From Hyphococcus sp. (lineage in GTDB: Bacteria; Pseudomonadota; Alphaproteobacteria; Caulobacterales; Parvularculaceae): DNA of 64,000 nucleotides. Shown here piece after piece: positions 27,705 to 35,977 of the stretch. The stretch is from the NCBI GenBank assembly GCA_021776245.1, contig JAJFGF010000039.1, forward strand, positions 62,001-126,000, in the 5' to 3' direction. Position 1 is the stretch's first letter. Each line of letters starts with the position of its first letter. Made by a program: the position numbers and the translations under genes. Under the pieces are notes generated by a model, which was given only the letters and a program-made list of their open reading frames with translations, ran no database searches and was not told the DNA's origin.

Positions 27705-28721
27705 CTAAGGCAGAAAACCGACAATTTCCTTGACTTCGGCGACCACTGGATCGGCGACGGCAGCCGCACGCTCAGCGCCATTTCTAAGGACTTGTTGCAG
27801 ATAACCCGGATCAGCCTCAAGACGGCGCAATTCCGCACTGATGGGCGCAAGTTTTTCGACTACAAGCTCGGCAAGGGCCGGTTTGAACGCGCCAAATCCC
27901 TGACCGCCAAATTCCTTAAGAACATCAGCATCGGGTTTGCCGGAAAGCGCAGCATAAATACCGACCAGATTTGCCGCTTCCAGGCGGCCCTCTAGTCCTT
28001 TCGGTTCCGAGGGCAAGGGTTCGGAATCGGTTTTTGCCTTTTTGATCTTGCGGGCGATCACGTCGGAATCATCGCTCAAAAAAATACATGCGTTTTCGGA
28101 TGGGTCCGATTTCGACATTTTCGCGGCGCCGTCACGCAGCGACATGATCCGCGCACCGGGCCCCTTGATCAACGGTTCCGGCAATGGAAAAAAATCGTCC
28201 GCATCAAAATCATGATTGAATTTTCCGGCAATATCCCGCGACAATTCAAGATGCTGTTTCTGGTCTTCGCCCACAGGCACGTGGGTCGCTTTATAGACAA
28301 GAATATCGGCGGCCTGCAGCACCGGGTATGTGTATAATCCCACGGACGCCCGCTCTTTATCCTTTCCGGCCTTGTCCTTGAACTGCGTCATGCGGTCGAT
28401 CCAACCCAGGCGAGCGACGCAATTGAAAATCCACGCAAGCTCCGCATGGGCGCCAACCGCAGATTGATGAAATACCGTCGCGATGTTCGGGTCAACGCCC
28501 GCCGCCAAATAGCTTGCCGCAATATGAAAGGTTTGCTCACGCAGCTTTTCCGGGTCCTGCCACACCGTGATCGCATGCATGTCAACGACGCAATAGTAAC
28601 ACTCATATTGGTGCTGCAACTCGACGAATTTGCGAATGGCGCCGAGATAATTACCCAGTTGCATACCACCCGATGGCTGTATGCCAGACAAAACCCGCAT
28701 AGGACCCCGATAACCGCTCAT
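27705..28721 (-). CDS. trpS: Tryptophanyl-tRNA synthetase
   Basis: Class I aminoacyl-tRNA synthetase. [21 protein letters not shown] is the HIGH-type motif (here with Q where T or H is common), and [15 protein letters not shown] carries [25 protein letters not shown] is the conserved ATP-site helix. 338 residues. Two possible ATG starts (28721 and 28700) have upstream purine runs; the first is kept. It closes the mutS-glnD-murJ-trpS series, a conserved alphaproteobacterial order. Confidence 0.95.
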
Positions 28722-28752: not shown

Positions 28753-30348
28753 TTATTTTCCGCCGGTGAGGTCCTTGTAGTCAGAAGGGCGCACGGCGCC
28801 AAGCGCCAGCGCTAAAACTCCATAGATGATAATGCCCGCACAGGAAATTGCGATGATCGCGAGCCACGAACGGTCCCATAAATAATCCGCAATAAGGTCC
28901 GTGTAGCCTAGCGACCAGTTTAGAAACATCGATAACCCGAAGCTTGCAAGCAGTATTCGCAATAGCCGAGCGGCCAGCCGGCCTCCAGGCTGAAATCGGC
29001 GTTGGCGATAAAGCTTCTGCCCCAGCAAAAAGACCTGGATCCATGCCGCGACCACGGTGGCGAAGGCAACGGCCATGAAACCAAATGCCGGGAAAAGCGC
29101 CAGCGCCAATGCCGTGTTGAGAAATATAGCGACAAGCGCATAGTTCATTGGCGTTCTGGTGTCTTCGCGCGCAAAAAAAGCTGGCGAGAAGATTTTGTGC
29201 CAGACAAAGGCGGGCAGGCCCCAACCGAATATTGCAAGCGCGCCGCCGGTCTTCACGACATCGGTTTCTGTAAAGGCCGATTGCCGGGCGCCGAATAGCG
29301 AAAGCGCCTCACTGGCGACGCCGCGAAAAAGCGCATCGCAAATTGGGGCGCCCATGACGATGAACGCAGCTGCAGCCGGGAAACACAATAATGCGGAAAT
29401 TTCCAGCGAACGATTGATGGCGCGGGAAGCGCCGGCTTCATCGCCCTGCTTTACCCGCAACGACAACATCGGCAGGAGCACTGCGGCAAGCGCAATACCG
29501 ATCACCGCCAATGGCAGTTGATAAAGCTGGTCCGCGTTCATGAGCCAGGAAACAGCGCCCGGCTCGCGGCTGGCGATATTTGTGCCAATAATAAGATTAA
29601 TCTGAATGGCACCGGCGCTGATAAAACCAGGCGCACCAAGAACAAACAATCGTTTGGCGGCGGGCGTCAGGCGCGGCATCCGCAGCCTAAGCAAAAACCC
29701 CTGGCGGGCAGCCCCGTAGATTAACAGCGTCAATTGCACGACGCCGCCGAAAAATACGCCCCAAGCCGCCGCCTGGCCGGTAATTTCCGTATCCGCATCA
29801 GCGTAAAGAAGGATTGCCGTAATGAGGCATATATTAAGCGCAAGCGGCGCGCCGGCGGACGCCGCAAACCTACCAAGAGAATTCAAAATGCCGCTCATCA
29901 AACCGACAAGCGACATCATCATCAAATAGGGAAACATGATCCGCGTATAAAGTGTGGTCAGAGCAAATTTCTCAGGGTCGTCCCCAAAACCAGATGCAAT
30001 TAAATAGACAAAAGCAGGCGCTGCAAGTTCAACCAGCGCTGTTAGCAAGGTCAGCAAAAACACCAGGCCGGCCAACACTTCTTCGGCGAATAATTTGGCC
30101 GCAACGTTTCCGTCTTCGACTTTTCGGCCTTGAAACATCGGAATAAACGCGGCATGAAACGCGCCCTCCGCAAACAAACGGCGAAACATATTCGGCAGGC
30201 GAAAGGCCGCCCAAAAGGCGTCCGCAACCGGGTTGCCGCCGGCGCCGATAATCCCCGCCATTAAAATCTGTCGCACAAACCCCAATACACGCGACATCAT
30301 GGTCAAGCCGCTGACGGTCGCGAGAGATTTGAATATTTTGCCGCTCAT
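28753..30348 (-). CDS. murJ: Lipid II flippase MurJ (MviN)
   Basis: Polytopic membrane protein moving lipid II across the inner membrane for peptidoglycan synthesis. The start SLATVSGLTMMSRVLGFVRQ and the following ADAFWAAFRLPNMFRRLFAEGAF are the family signature. About 14 membrane helices follow. 531 residues from the ATG at 30346-30348; the preceding TTG adds one residue. It follows glnD after a small hairpin-T structure. Confidence 0.95.
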   Translation of the reverse strand: MSGKIFKSLATVSGLTMMSRVLGFVRQILMAGIIGAGGNPVADAFWAAFRLPNMFRRLFAEGAFHAAFIPMFQGRKVEDGNVAAKLFAEEVLAGLVFLLTLLTALVELAAPAFVYLIASGFGDDPEKFALTTLYTRIMFPYLMMMSLVGLMSGILNSLGRFAASAGAPLALNICLITAILLYADADTEITGQAAAWGVFFGGVVQLTLLIYGAARQGFLLRLRMPRLTPAAKRLFVLGAPGFISAGAIQINLIIGTNIASREPGAVSWLMNADQLYQLPLAVIGIALAAVLLPMLSLRVKQGDEAGASRAINRSLEISALLCFPAAAAFIVMGAPICDALFRGVASEALSLFGARQSAFTETDVVKTGGALAIFGWGLPAFVWHKIFSPAFFAREDTRTPMNYALVAIFLNTALALALFPAFGFMAVAFATVVAAWIQVFLLGQKLYRQRRFQPGGRLAARLLRILLASFGLSMFLNWSLGYTDLIADYLWDRSWLAIIAISCAGIIIYGVLALALGAVRPSDYKDLTGGK

Positions 30349-30360
30349 CAATTCATTTCG

Positions 30361-30407: not shown

Positions 30408-33128
30408 TCATGGGTGAGAACCAGCAGAAAGAACCTGCATCAGGCTTTTTTCAATACGCGCCAGCAATTTTGTGTCGGTAATTTTTTCACCGGAACTGGT
30501 TTTAAGATAAAATGCGTCCACAGCGCGTTCTCCATATGTCGCAATATGGGCGGACGCAATCGTCAGCCCGAGACGCGATAATGCCGACGTCAGGTCAAAC
30601 AGGAGGCCCGGGCGATCAAGGCCTTCCGTTTCAATTACCGTGGCGTCCTGCGAAGCGTTGTCTTCAATCCGCACCGCTGGCGCGACCGTAAAGATAGATC
30701 GCCGGTCGCCAAATCCGCGTTTGAAAGATGGCTTTTTTTCAGGTCGCACGCTTGCAACGGCGAGCAACGCGCGATGAACGCGGCGCGCCTGTTCGATATC
30801 ATCGATGGGAAGGCCGTCTGATGACTGAACGGCAAAAACATCAATCGCCTTTCCGTCCCGGGTTGTCAGCACATGGACGCCACGCACGCTCATCCCACTG
30901 GCTGCAATAGCTCCCGCGAGATCGGCCAAAAGGCCCCGCCGGTCGTCAGCGTAAACAATGACTTCAAGATCGCCATCTCGCGGCGTTACCGTAACAGCGC
31001 TGGCCGCCTTGTCGTTTTCGGCCGCTCGCACGAGATGCGCAAAACGCAGAATGATCTCGGCGTCGACGGAACGCAATATAGGGCCGGTCAGCCGGTTTAA
31101 GAAATTCTCTTTGTCTTTTTCTTTCCAATCGGAAAGTCTTTCCTTCGTCTCTATACGAACTGCTTCCGCTCGTTTTTCAAATCTTTCGATCACTGCACTT
31201 TCGCCATGAGTGAACCAGGTTTTCGCGCACTCATAAAGCTCTGTCAGCTGGCGGCGCGTAATTTCATCCCAGGAGTTAACGCCGACAATCCGCAGATGAC
31301 AAACTGACAAAACAAGCATCAGGTCCAGGCGCTCAAGGGAGCCGACATTCTGCGCAAATTTTGAAATAACGCGTTCATCGGCAAGATTTCTGCGCTCAGC
31401 GATGCGCACCATTAGTAAATGCCTCGCCGCCGCCCATCCAGCAAGCGACGCTTGTTCGGCGTCCAAGCCCAATCGTTTCGATACGCGTGCGACAAGTTTT
31501 TCGCAGTCAGCGACGGATTTTCCCTTTATCGACCACACGGATTCATGAAGCAGAAGGGCTACATAGAATAGCAATGGATCGCCCGCTTGCCGCACAATCC
31601 GCGTCGCAACAGGGTGTCGTTTCCTTAACACGCCCTTGCGGATCTGCTTCAGCAGCCCGATGCAGCGCAAGACGTGCTCGTCGAGCGTGAAGCGGCGGTA
31701 AAGACCATAATCGATGCGCCCAACAATCGAGCCAAAAGCAGGAATATATTTTCCAAGCAATCCAGTTTCAGTCATGATCCGCAAGACCCGAACGGGATCG
31801 GCGGCATCGGTCAAAATGGCGGCAAAGAGCTTGGCGACAACCGGGTCTTTGCGAATTTCTAATGTGACCTGCGGGACCTGTTCCGTGACGATGGCGAGCG
31901 CTGCCGGATGAAAATCTATTTTGGGCTTTTTTGAATAGGCTCTGAACAACCGGAAGAGATCGCGCGGCTGGCGGCGCGCTTTGGCTGCGCTTGCGAAATC
32001 GAGGCGGCCATTGCGGATGCGCAGATTGGGTTTGCCGGGGGCTTCATCTTCTTGCAGAGCGCGCGGCAAAAGCTTCGGCAAATGCGGCATGCGTTTGGCG
32101 CGCTCCTCCTCAAGGCGGGCGCAAAGTATTCGCGTCAGACGCCCGACCTCGACAGTGTTGACAAAGTAGTGCTTCATCAGCCGTTCGGCGGCGGTGATGT
32201 CGGGCCGGTCCTGATATCCAAGGCGCGCGGCGATGTCGGGTTGAATGTCAAATGTGAGCTTTTCATCCGCCCGACCGCGAAAATCATGCATATGCGCGCG
32301 GACCGACCACAAAAACCGTTCAGCCTTGGCGAGCGCCCGCCGCTCTGACGGCTCCATTACTTTGCCAATGCTGCGTGCGCCGCCCGTCGATCCGCCATAG
32401 ACATATTTATAAAGCCAGCGGATTGTTTGAAGGTCGCGCAGCCCCCCCTTACCTTCTTTAACATCGGGCTCAACCAGGTAACGCGTTTCGAAAAATTTCG
32501 CCTGGCGCTCATTTTGCTCGGCGAGCTTGGCCGCAACGAATTGGTTTTTCGTTTTTTTGCGCAGCTTGTCGTAACCCGACCGAAATGCATCGTAGGTCCT
32601 TGGCGGTCCGCTTACCAAGCGACCGTCAAGATAGGCGGTTCGCGCAATAATGTCATTTTTGGCAAATTGGACGGCGCTTTGTGGAGAATGAGCAGCATAT
32701 CCAAGCTTCAACCCGGAATCCCACAATGGATACAGGAAAAAATCGAGCGCAGCGCTCAATCGACCTTCAAATTCCGGCTTGTAAAGAAACAAAAGATCAA
32801 TGTCTGAAAAAGGCGCCAGCTCGCTGCGCCCATATCCGCCAACCGCAACAATAGCCAGCTCATTGCGAATGTCTTCCGGCGCGGCGGCAAAAAGTCCGTG
32901 AATGACAAGATCGATACCAGCCGCCAGCTGTGCGGCAATTTGATCGCCGCGCTCAAAACGGCGCAGCGTTTGACGGCGGAGATCAATGACTGTGTTTCTC
33001 AACAGTTTGCCTGCAAGACCAAATGCCTGTCCGGCGCGTTCGTCGGCAATCGCATCAGCAATGGCTTTATTGATTGCAGCGCGCTCAACGACCTGTTGAC
33101 CGCCGCTCGGTGTTGTTGATTTCGTCAC
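30408..33128 (-). CDS. glnD: PII uridylyltransferase GlnD with degenerate HD domain
   Basis: Nitrogen-status enzyme that uridylylates PII proteins (N-terminal domain) and normally removes the group through an HD domain. The nucleotidyltransferase motif AVGGYGRSELAPFSDIDLLF (about 95-114) is intact, and two ACT domains lie at about 720-790 and 828-900. The HD domain (about 480-615) is altered. The usual HD dyad reads LLHES (His528-Glu529), the GRGGDHS-type stretch is replaced by WSIKGKSVAD, and the VAD aspartate position reads VCH (Cys610-His611). DEH (485) and RHLLM (570) remain. Starts with GTG at 33126-33128. 906 residues. Confidence 0.93.
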   Translation of the reverse strand: MTKSTTPSGGQQVVERAAINKAIADAIADERAGQAFGLAGKLLRNTVIDLRRQTLRRFERGDQIAAQLAAGIDLVIHGLFAAAPEDIRNELAIVAVGGYGRSELAPFSDIDLLFLYKPEFEGRLSAALDFFLYPLWDSGLKLGYAAHSPQSAVQFAKNDIIARTAYLDGRLVSGPPRTYDAFRSGYDKLRKKTKNQFVAAKLAEQNERQAKFFETRYLVEPDVKEGKGGLRDLQTIRWLYKYVYGGSTGGARSIGKVMEPSERRALAKAERFLWSVRAHMHDFRGRADEKLTFDIQPDIAARLGYQDRPDITAAERLMKHYFVNTVEVGRLTRILCARLEEERAKRMPHLPKLLPRALQEDEAPGKPNLRIRNGRLDFASAAKARRQPRDLFRLFRAYSKKPKIDFHPAALAIVTEQVPQVTLEIRKDPVVAKLFAAILTDAADPVRVLRIMTETGLLGKYIPAFGSIVGRIDYGLYRRFTLDEHVLRCIGLLKQIRKGVLRKRHPVATRIVRQAGDPLLFYVALLLHESVWSIKGKSVADCEKLVARVSKRLGLDAEQASLAGWAAARHLLMVRIAERRNLADERVISKFAQNVGSLERLDLMLVLSVCHLRIVGVNSWDEITRRQLTELYECAKTWFTHGESAVIERFEKRAEAVRIETKERLSDWKEKDKENFLNRLTGPILRSVDAEIILRFAHLVRAAENDKAASAVTVTPRDGDLEVIVYADDRRGLLADLAGAIAASGMSVRGVHVLTTRDGKAIDVFAVQSSDGLPIDDIEQARRVHRALLAVASVRPEKKPSFKRGFGDRRSIFTVAPAVRIEDNASQDATVIETEGLDRPGLLFDLTSALSRLGLTIASAHIATYGERAVDAFYLKTSSGEKITDTKLLARIEKSLMQVLSAGSHP

Positions 33129-33238: not shown

Positions 33239-35977
33239 CTATGAATGGTCCAAAAACGATTTCAATTTATAAAGAGCGTCAAGAGCTTCACGAGGCGACA
33301 GCGCATCGGGATCGAGGTCTTGCAACGCCGCCCTTAGCGCCCCGCCATCCGCCTCCGCTGCCGCCGCCCCGTCGGCAGGGTGGCGCAGCCCGGCAGCGGC
33401 GAAAAGCGGCAGATCGTCGATAGCAGCGCCGTTTGCCCGCTGCTTTTCAAGCAGGGCCAAAACCGCTTCGGCGCGTGCGATAACTGCCGCCGGAAGACCC
33501 GCGAGACGCGCCACCGCGACGCCGTAAGATCGGTCCGCCGGGCCCGGCGCGACTTCATGGAGGAAAACAACATCCTTTTTCCATTCGCGCACCTTCATCG
33601 ACATATTAAACAGGCGTGCAAGACGATCCGCCAGCGCCGTCAATTCATGATAATGGGTTGCAAATAATCCGCGACAGCGGTTTGTTTCATGGAGGTGCTC
33701 CACCGCCGCCCAGGCAATGGATAGACCATCAAAGGTCGACGTTCCGCGCCCGATTTCATCCAGCACAACCAGCGATCGCTCGCTCGCCTGATTAAGAATG
33801 GCCGCCGTTTCGACCATTTCGACCATAAAAGTCGAGCGGCCCTTTGCGAGATCATCCGCAGCGCCGACCCGTGAAAAGACGCGATCAACAACACCGATAT
33901 GCGCCGATGCGGCAGGTACAAAAGATCCGGCCTGGGCGAGAATAGCGATGAGCGCATTCTGGCGCAGAAATGTTGATTTTCCTGCCATATTTGGCCCGGT
34001 GATGAGCCACAAATGGGCATCGCCGTCCTTGCTTAAGACGCAATCATTAGCGACAAACCCAGTATCGCCGGCCGCGCTTGTGCGTTCGACTATCGGGTGC
34101 CGTCCGCCCCTGATGTCAAAGGCTACGGAGTTATCGATCTTTGGTCGAACAAATGATTGCTCAGCTGCGAGATGGGCGAGCCCCGCGGCGACGTCAAGAT
34201 CGGCGAGCGCCGCCGCCGCCGCCGACAATGTATCTTGACGCTTGAGAATGGCGCTTGAAATATCGTCAAAAATTTCAAGTTCCCGCGCCAGCGCCCCGTC
34301 GCGCGCGCGGGTTATTTTTGCATCGAGTTCTGCAAGTTCTGTTGTTGTGAAACGCACGGCGCTCACCAGCGTCTGACGATGAATAAAAGTTTCATCGAGC
34401 GGCGATGCGAATAGCCGGTCGCCTTGCGTGGGCGGCGTCTCAACGAAATAGCCGAGCACATTATTGTGGCGAATTTTTAACGCCTTAACACCTGCAAGTT
34501 CGCGGTATTTGCTTTCAAGCCCAGCGATCACCCGGCGGGATTCATCTCGCAAGACGCGCGCTGCATCCAGCGCCGGGTCAAAACCTTTGGCGATAAATCC
34601 GCCATCGCGGGCCAAAAGCGGCGGGTTCCCGTCAAGCGCCTCACGAAGCTTGTCGATCAAGGCCGAAAATCCTTCGCCGCCGCAATCTTCCAGCGCAGCG
34701 GCGCGCGATCCGATCAAAGCCGGTGCGCTGTCGAGGTGCTTTGCGCCAGCAATCTCATTTGCAATCCTGCGTGCATACATCAGGGCATCGCGAATGGCGA
34801 CAAGGTCCCGGGGGCCGCCGCGAGCCAGCGAAAGGCGCGACAATGATCGCGCAATGTCCGGCGTTTCTTTGAGATGCCCGCGCACGGCGCCTCGCAGGCT
34901 AGGCGCGTGGTCGAAAAAACTGATCGCATCATGGCGCGCTGCAATGGAGGAAACATCGCACAACGGTCTGGCAAGACGGGTTGCTAAAAGCCGCGCGCCG
35001 GCGCCGGTGACCGTATGATCCACCGCCCAAAATAGCGAGCCTTTTCGGCCTCCATTTTGAGTCTGCAGCAACTCGAGAGAGGCTCTTGTCGCCGCATCGA
35101 TTGTCATTGTCTCTGCGGCGGTCGCGCGGCGCGGTGGGTTGAGCGCGGGCATGCGCCCGGCCTGCGTTATTCCCACATAAGATAAAAGTGCGCCAAGGGC
35201 GCTGCATTCCGCCCTTGAAAAACTGCCAAAACCATCAAGCGATGCAACGCCAAATGTCTCCATGATCCGGCGCTGGCCAGCGGTTGAGTCAAAATATTGC
35301 ATCGGTTGCCATGTCAACGAAAGATCGTCCTCGAGGCCGGAGAGCCTTGAGCGCCAATCATCCACATCGACAAGATCCGGCGCCAGGAGTTCCTTTGGTG
35401 AAATGGCGGCGATATCCGCGGTGAGTGCGTCGAAACTGGTGTCGCGCACAAATAGCTCGCCGGTCGATACGTCAACCCAGGCGAACGCCGCCTCCTCGCC
35501 GCCCCGCAACACCGCCACAGCGCCAAGAAAATTATTGGCGCGCGCATCAAGCAGCGCGTCCTCCAAAATTGTGCCGGGGGTCACAGTGCGAACTATTTCC
35601 CGGCGCACGACGGATTTTGAACCGCGCTTTTTCGCAGCCTCCGGACTTTCCATCTGTTCGCAGATCGCCACCTTGAATCCCGCGCAGATCAGCTTGGCGA
35701 GATAAGATTCCTGTGCGTGAAACGGCACGCCGCACATCGGTATGTCTTCGCCGCCATGCTGGCCGCGTTTGGTCAGGGTGATGTCAAGCGCGCCGGCGGC
35801 TATGATCGCGTCGTCAAAAAACAATTCGTAAAAATCGCCCATCCGATAAAAGAGTAATGCGTCTCCCGCTTTTTCTTTGATCGATAGATACTGCATCATC
35901 ATAGGCGTCGGTTGCGCGATCGATGGCGCACGCGCCGATTTTTTTGTACTCGTTGATAAAGGTGCGGTTTTGGACAT
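33239..35977 (-). CDS. mutS: DNA mismatch repair protein MutS
   Basis: ATPase that recognises mismatches. The mismatch-wedge motif FYE is at residues 49-51 ([13 protein letters not shown]). The ATPase domain carries Walker A in [16 protein letters not shown], then [17 protein letters not shown], Walker [17 protein letters not shown] and the ATHYHELT motif. 912 residues, with a short Ser/Thr/Lys-rich N-terminal extension before MMMQYLSIK. It heads the mutS-glnD-murJ-trpS group; the 110-base spacer to glnD contains no clear structure. Confidence 0.97.

Follow-up and report, generated by a model that had tools for sequence, protein, structure and literature searches.

The glnD locus and its HD domain

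The window analyzed here, a stretch of 64,000 nucleotides from a Hyphococcus sp. contig (JAJFGF010000039.1, positions 62,001 to 126,000; assembly GCA_021776245.1, genome G000), carries glnD, the gene for a PII uridylyltransferase with a degenerate HD domain. The open reading frame (30408..33128) lies on the minus strand, as do all features of the window described below, starts with GTG and encodes 906 residues. The protein passed the model TIGR01693 UTase_glnD with 675.4 bits (cut-off 519.4) and stayed below the cut-off of NF003467, the best-fitting GlnD equivalog (798.8 vs. 959 bits). According to two papers, characterized GlnDs uridylylate PII with their nucleotidyltransferase (NT) domain and deuridylylate it with their HD domain, glutamine being the switch (PMC4285133, PMC3480911). 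The same papers place the uridylyl-removing (UR) site in the HD domain, both for R. rubrum (PMC3480911) and in a review (PMC4285133).

The sequence-only reading of this locus had described a GlnD that keeps its NT motif and both ACT domains, and all three were recovered. The motif GGYGRSELAPFSDID occupies residues 97–111 (32796..32840), and the residues G97, G98, G100, S108, D109 and D111 as well as D137 were invariant in 69/69 aligned GlnDs. ACT domain 1 comprises about residues 720–800 (30729..30971; PF01842, best stretch 722–772, 3.5e-15) and ACT domain 2 about residues 825–900 (30429..30656), where a second PF01842 stretch was found and other ACT models matched residues 818–895. A PF08335 region was detected with 1.2e-36. 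Taken together with the TIGR01693 score and the presence of a PII with Tyr51 in the genome, these features assign the transferase part to GlnD, and UMP (uridine monophosphate) transfer is predicted for it.

The HD domain differed. Its approximate limits, residues 456–625 (31254..31763), were set by alignment, an AlphaFold2 (AF2) model and a PDB match, and the stretch 31290–31690 encodes about residues 480–613. Residues were matched to GlnD of E. coli K-12 (NP_414709.1), whose HD metal ligands are H471, H514-D515 and D597. In the alignment, E. coli H471, H514, D515, K518, H556 and D597 corresponded to H485, H528, E529, W532, H570 and H611 of the window protein. His485 (31674..31676) and Arg569-His570 (31419..31424) were retained. 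His528-Glu529 (31542..31547) was found at the position of the HD dyad, WSIKGKSVAD (residues 532–541; 31506..31535) at that of the loop K-G-R-G-G-D-H-S, and Cys610-His611 (31296..31301) where V-A-D, with E. coli A596-D597, was expected. Two of the four metal ligands had been lost in addition to the lysine and the loop, and two (H485 and H528) were still present along with H570. The residues quoted in the sequence-only reading (DEH485, LLHES with His528-Glu529, WSIKGKSVAD at 532–541, RH at 569–570 and Cys610-His611) were exact. Its description of the HD domain as degenerate was borne out by the comparison with E. coli GlnD, from which the window protein departs at the dyad aspartate (D515), at K518, in the GRGGDHS loop and at D597. 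Judged by its HD ligands, its loop and its NF003467 score, the protein would not count as a bifunctional GlnD that both transfers and removes UMP.

Distribution of the HD loss

The family Parvularculaceae was represented by 62 genomes including G000; among them are G016 (a metagenome-assembled genome of Marinicaulis sp., the genus of the window), G040 (Amphiplicatus metriothermophilus) and G071 (Parvularcula oceani). The term order is used here in a wider sense than by NCBI, where the family of Amphiplicatus and Parvularcula has an order of its own. GlnD was found in 54 of the 62 genomes, and the HD aspartate was absent in all 54. Residues were counted in the 53 family GlnDs whose HD region is complete within a single frame, leaving aside a second copy in G056 and a split copy in G060, and in 16 order-mates from four other families. 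At position 529, the family had Asp in 0/53, Glu in 47/53 and Gln in 6/53, and the order-mates had Asp in 16/16. Lys at position 532 occurred in 0/53 and 16/16, respectively. Position 611 was Asp in none of the 53 (His in 38, Arg in 12, Tyr in 2 and Asn in 1) and in every order-mate. The histidines were kept in part of the family, i.e., His485 in 40/53, His528 in 37/53 and His570 in 25/53; the order-mates kept all of them, including His570. None of the family GlnDs possessed all four ligands, 27 possessed two, 23 one and 3 none, and 16/16 order-mates possessed all four. Thus, the HD loss seen in the window was found family-wide, and the same residues, which the sequence-only reading had proposed to inspect in relatives, proved intact in the order-mates. 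A sequencing error or an oddity of one genome was ruled out, since 54 genomes share the loss.

Three observations on single residues and copies were made in addition. Cys610 (31299..31301), which precedes the lost final aspartate, was present in 53/53 family GlnDs, with Ala at the same position in 13/16 order-mates. In G060 (L077, contig 194, near 1600), glnD is divided into two overlapping frames of 529 and 419 residues, the break coming where the HD domain begins, which may reflect an assembly frameshift or a true fission; this split GlnD likewise shows LLHES and SVCHL. In G056, GlnD lies on two contig ends (L085, contig 163; L092, contig 191), and the two copies, alike in the HD motifs read, may be strain variants or a duplication.

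Beyond the family, a profile of the intact HD domain built from 14 order-mates was used to scan 200 genomes of the order. It matched 195, i.e., 159/159 genomes outside the family with E values of at most 3e-83 (14 of these had supplied the profile) and 36 family genomes with E values of at least 8e-52. The five genomes without a match were family genomes in which GlnD was not found. In the class, 231/337 genomes matched and 106/337 did not. No HD loss elsewhere in the class was seen in the 17 low-scoring genomes that were read, the remaining genomes, including the low scorers G328 and G406 (the latter a congener of G100, one of the genomes read), being judged by score. The HD dyad was kept in 93/93 readable loci outside the family (76 loci and the 17 genomes from the class scan); one further fragment, L228, lacks the dyad stretch and is not part of the 93.

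In a tree of 69 order sequences calculated without the HD columns, the family formed one clade (support 0.999) on a stem of 0.75 substitutions per site. Because the family forms a single clade in this HD-free tree, one loss on the family stem would be the simplest account. The gene neighborhood was also inspected. In the window, glnD is preceded by mutS (33239..35977) and followed by murJ (28753..30351) and trpS (27705..28721), all three being open reading frames named in the sequence-only reading and supported by synteny. The gene order mutS-glnD-murJ-trpS, which that reading had called conserved, indeed recurred: the same genes adjoin glnD in many other alphaproteobacteria, and of the 93 loci searched, 39, of which at least two belong to the family, had matches to all four together within the flanks examined. 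Replacement of glnD by horizontal transfer is disfavored by synteny and by the single clade, and vertical descent is the simplest explanation, on which the long family stem leaves some doubt.

Bifunctional proteobacterial GlnDs such as that of E. coli have the same domain order as the window protein (NT, PF08335, HD-type and two ACT domains), but the window protein lacks the HD aspartate, the lysine, the GRGGDHS loop and the final aspartate and fails NF003467. No account of a GlnD without a UR active site was found in the open-access literature as judged by titles and the openings of abstracts. The comparison supports a family-wide variant of a known enzyme, with its activity being predicted, and suggests that it would be misleading to name the GlnDs of Parvularculaceae bifunctional.

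Fold, selection and the fate of the HD site

An HD domain that has lost its canonical residues might have acquired a shifted metal site or might be replaced by a second GlnD, two possibilities that the sequence-only reading had named as fatal to its claim. With respect to the first, positions 485, 528, 529 and 611 all varied within the family, and N, T, Q, E, R, P, Y, F and K were found in various members at positions 485, 528, 570 and 611. Given this variation at all four ligand positions, a shifted site is unlikely. With respect to the second, no further GlnD was found in the window's genome, which encodes two PF08335 proteins, namely one GlnD and one GlnE-like protein.

A variant of the first possibility is that other residues, e.g., Glu529, Cys610, Glu484 and His611, took over as ligands of a rebuilt HD site that is still a hydrolase. 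Potential ligands are indeed conserved in the family HD domain (Glu454 in 51/53, Glu484 in 50/53, Glu529 in 47/53 and Cys610 in 53/53), and the fold is kept in the prediction described below. However, no canonical ligand position is invariant, and Glu454 and Glu484 are invariant in the intact order-mates too. Moreover, when pairs were compared at equal NT-region identity, identity in the HD domain dropped in the family at the larger distances: family pairs had 0.37 and order-mates 0.57 at NT-region identities of 0.4–0.5, the values at 0.5–0.6 were 0.47 and 0.60, and those at 0.7–0.8 were 0.69 and 0.74. The drop in the lowest range (0.37 vs. 0.57) suits a lost site better than a rebuilt one, and a rebuilt hydrolase is regarded as highly improbable.

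The ratio of nonsynonymous to synonymous substitutions (dN/dS, Nei–Gojobori) in the HD domain was about 0.03–0.14 for close family pairs where dS was defined, and about 0.003–0.02 for three pairs of order-mates with defined dS; where dS exceeds 1, the estimates are rough. By this measure, the pseudo-HD domain of the family is under purifying selection, weaker than that in order-mates, and does not behave like a decaying pseudogene. In the AF2 model of residues 365–665, the mean predicted local distance difference test score was 92.9, compared to 90.3 for an intact control, with the same order of helices. The best PDB match of both was 3wfq_F, a tRNA-processing enzyme that carries an HD domain (pseudo-HD: Z 22.8, root mean square deviation 3.3, 260 aligned residues; intact control: Z 25.7, 3.0, 261 aligned residues). 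The lone HD hydrolase 2pq7 was matched with a Z of only 7.5 vs. 9.3 for the intact control. A solved GlnD structure was not found by sequence search (best E 0.02). Thus, the pseudo-HD domain is predicted to fold as an HD domain still, with the same fold as the intact GlnD HD domain, and in view of its residues it would no longer be able to hydrolyze PII-UMP.

PII signaling and one-way modification

If the writer half of GlnD still acts, its target should be maintained. PII was read at 68 loci in 54 family genomes, which does not cover every copy of every genome. In 65 copies, from 51 genomes, residue 51 in the T-loop was Tyr. Fifty of these genomes have GlnD, and one (G007, an 84% complete assembly) is a genome in which GlnD was not found; all 50 GlnD-bearing genomes with a PII read keep Tyr51. 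In the sole PII of G075, G076 and G077, i.e., of 3/3 g19 genomes, residue 51 was Leu, and GlnD was not found in any of them. By its sequence, this PII cannot be uridylylated at residue 51. The g19 loci (L104 of G076, L105 of G075 and L106 of G077) belong to small genomes that keep GlnE and the loop of glutamine synthetase (GS). The retention of Tyr51 alongside GlnD and its replacement by Leu in the g19 genomes suggest that the writer half still acts. In G060, which bears GlnD, only a weak PII match was obtained and no classic PII could be read.

These data also bear on the idea that GlnD no longer acts on PII and either senses glutamine for some other purpose or is on its way out. GlnD was not found in 3/3 g19 and 4/10 g18 genomes, having been wholly lost in these relatives, and the family stem is long (0.75 substitutions per site), as would fit a gene being abandoned. 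On the other hand, the NT motif is invariant, the gene is under purifying selection, and Tyr51 is kept in 50 GlnD-bearing genomes and lost in g19. A role away from PII is considered very unlikely.

The window's genome encodes PII proteins of the GlnB type (YRGAEYVVDF) and the GlnK type (YRGAEYRVDF). Judged by motifs, it also carries glnB-glnA, a glnK-amtB pair next to genes for glutamate synthase, and a GlnE in which the NT motif occurs twice. GlnE shares the PF08335 domain and an NT motif with GlnD, but is encoded by a separate gene of this genome and carries two NT motifs. The GS loop LYDLPPEE was kept in 7 of 11 genomes read, with one change each in G065 (LYDLSPEE) and G077 (LYDLPPAE), and had decayed to LYAM.. 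in four g18 genomes without PF08335 proteins and PII. Presence of the loop thus goes along with presence of GlnE, which is assumed for order-mate G024, and this pair provides a control parallel to that of Tyr51. These four are g18 Parvularcula (G067, G069, G070 and G072; GS loci L238–L241) in which PII, GlnD and GlnE were not found, the assembly of G072 being 89% complete, and the whole PII/GlnE cascade seems gone in them.

The two NT motifs of GlnE bring up a further way of reversing the modification, namely that the NT domain of GlnD is two-way, its site releasing UMP from PII through pyrophosphorolysis or phosphorolysis. GlnE is a precedent, as its NT domains perform both adenylylation and deadenylylation of GS, and the NT motif is kept in the GlnD of the same genome. 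Nevertheless, the NT motif showed no change peculiar to the family, and nothing pointed to this route directly; little credit is given to it.

A removing activity that has moved to another protein is a more serious contender. A separate HD protein or other phosphodiesterase would strip UMP (or adenosine monophosphate, AMP) from PII. The window's genome otherwise has PII, GlnE and the adenylylation loop of GS, and it encodes two small unassigned HD proteins, C48 (212 residues) and C6 (258 residues). However, the genome has just four PF01966 proteins, a model that misses some HD proteins; two of the four are recognizable by their motifs as dGTPase-like and RSH proteins. Nothing hydrolase-like was noticed among the listed neighbors of glnB-glnA or glnK-amtB, which were looked over unsystematically. 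Such a separate hydrolase appears unlikely overall, and the analysis gave no support to the suggestion of the sequence-only reading that PII is deadenylated by another enzyme.

A possible reason for tolerance of the HD loss came from the genes ntrB and ntrC. In the textbook system, NtrB-NtrC is a main reader of unmodified PII and is switched off by it. In order-mate G024 (L268), the cluster reads dusB-ntrB-ntrC-ntrY-ntrX-trkA-like. In G000, G004, G040, G067 and G071, ntrY-ntrX directly follows dusB, and ntrB-ntrC are absent from the junction, which is found in G000 at L271 1406–6353 (contig 70). In these five genomes, the open frames of dusB and ntrY overlap or lie no more than 171 bases apart, vs. 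2473 in G024. G075 has ntrY-ntrX on a contig that stops before dusB. NtrX was scored in G024 and G000 and passed its NCBIfam model in both; the DusB model was passed in G000 and fell short in G024 (272.5 vs. 293.3). NtrB and NtrC of G024 were below the model cut-offs and are named from the best match and gene order. The NtrC model TIGR01818 was below its cut-off in all seven genomes searched, the intact order-mate included, and the absence of NtrC is drawn from synteny and pairwise identity. G000, G004, G040, G071 and G075 each have a further strong NtrC-like protein; this is the orthologue of a different G024 protein (57–59% identity) rather than of G024 NtrC, with which it shares 31–33% identity (three pairs listed). 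Thus, NtrB-NtrC appears to be missing from these family genomes. Caulobacter has ntrC and ntrX, and there a glnD deletion results in a glutamine auxotroph whose phenotypes are recapitulated by deletions of glnB, ntrC and glnA (PMC4848567).

On this evidence, the GlnD of Parvularculaceae is best read as a one-way, glutamine-gated PII uridylyltransferase with a pseudo-HD domain that is structural or regulatory, a reading to which a probability of about 0.65 is assigned. The sequence-only reading had likewise envisaged a transferase without its own reverse activity, which agrees with HD site residues lost family-wide and an NT motif kept; the one-way activity is predicted. At low glutamine, the NT domain would put UMP onto PII Tyr51, and at high glutamine, sensed by the ACT domains, uridylylation would stop. 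Unmodified PII would be restored mainly via new synthesis, dilution and turnover. Dilution and turnover are the first choice for the reset of PII-UMP because none of the genome's four PF01966 proteins is a conspicuous candidate for a hydrolase. The retained pseudo-HD domain may be a scaffold, or a switch that conveys to the NT domain what the ACT domains sense, in the manner of the RelA pseudo-hydrolase. Loss of the HD site would be tolerable because NtrB-NtrC is absent; the main outputs of PII would then be AmtB and, through adenylylation of GS, GlnE.

Several points weigh against this one-way enzyme. The retained H485, H528 and H570 may permit a weak removing activity. One-way modification is hard to regulate, and a separate hydrolase is therefore plausible. 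At NT-region identities of 0.6–0.7, HD conservation was level (0.61 in the family and 0.62 in order-mates). The Tyr51 argument provides modest evidence on its own, because Tyr51 is also kept in the PII of lineages without uridylylation and in G133, an alphaproteobacterium (95% complete) with a Tyr51 PII and no GlnD HD match; this control outside the family covered 20 of the 106 genomes without a match, of which only G133 had PII. G011, G042 and G053 have GlnD and no PII match (88, 72 and 93% complete, respectively), possibly due to assembly gaps. Finally, NtrB-NtrC was checked in six family genomes and one order-mate only, and the NtrC-like protein of G067 stood outside the comparison, so that the absence there is less fully supported.

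Going beyond the one-way enzyme, PII-UMP might never be hydrolyzed. It would then be a mark that is written once, under nitrogen limitation, and cleared only by growth and turnover, with GS controlled by GlnE's direct glutamine sensing. This state would have arisen once with the loss of NtrBC, as an early stage of a breakdown of PII control that leads to the PII of g19, which is not uridylylatable at residue 51, or to the four Parvularcula genomes in which PII, GlnD and GlnE were not found. This scenario is put forward tentatively, with rather more doubt than confidence.

RelA of gammaproteobacteria offers a comparison: its pseudo-hydrolase domain is kept and modulates synthesis (PMC8012599). 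Like RelA, the family GlnD would be a two-way type of enzyme made one-way, with a decayed hydrolase and an intact synthetic domain, although the family HD domain is judged dead by sequence only. Gammaproteobacteria keep a second, active RSH, SpoT, unlike the window's genome, which holds no second GlnD; moreover, RelA differs from GlnD in its synthetic domain and substrate. Actinobacterial GlnD acts on PII Tyr51 and adenylylates GlnK (PMC4285133, PMC3612183). It belongs to a different clade and transfers AMP rather than UMP, the Tyr51 target being the likeness. In Corynebacterium, GlnK is turned over by proteolysis.

GlnD is a textbook reversible glutamine sensor, and here a whole family has an apparently dead removing half. 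The need of PII signaling for reversible modification thus becomes a directly testable question, with natural controls at hand in the intact order-mates, the GlnD-less relatives with Leu51, and the GlnE-less relatives with a decayed GS loop. If true, the family GlnD would stand beside RelA as a second case of a dead hydrolase domain under selection in a formerly two-way enzyme. The mirror case was observed in another alphaproteobacterial family. At L227 (G331, contig 1, about 1515482–1515856), a GlnD-like frame of 948 residues keeps the HD residues (LFHDMGK, WLIQHH and MADL), and its NT motif has decayed (HASGELAHDRLAPFSTVQLLF).

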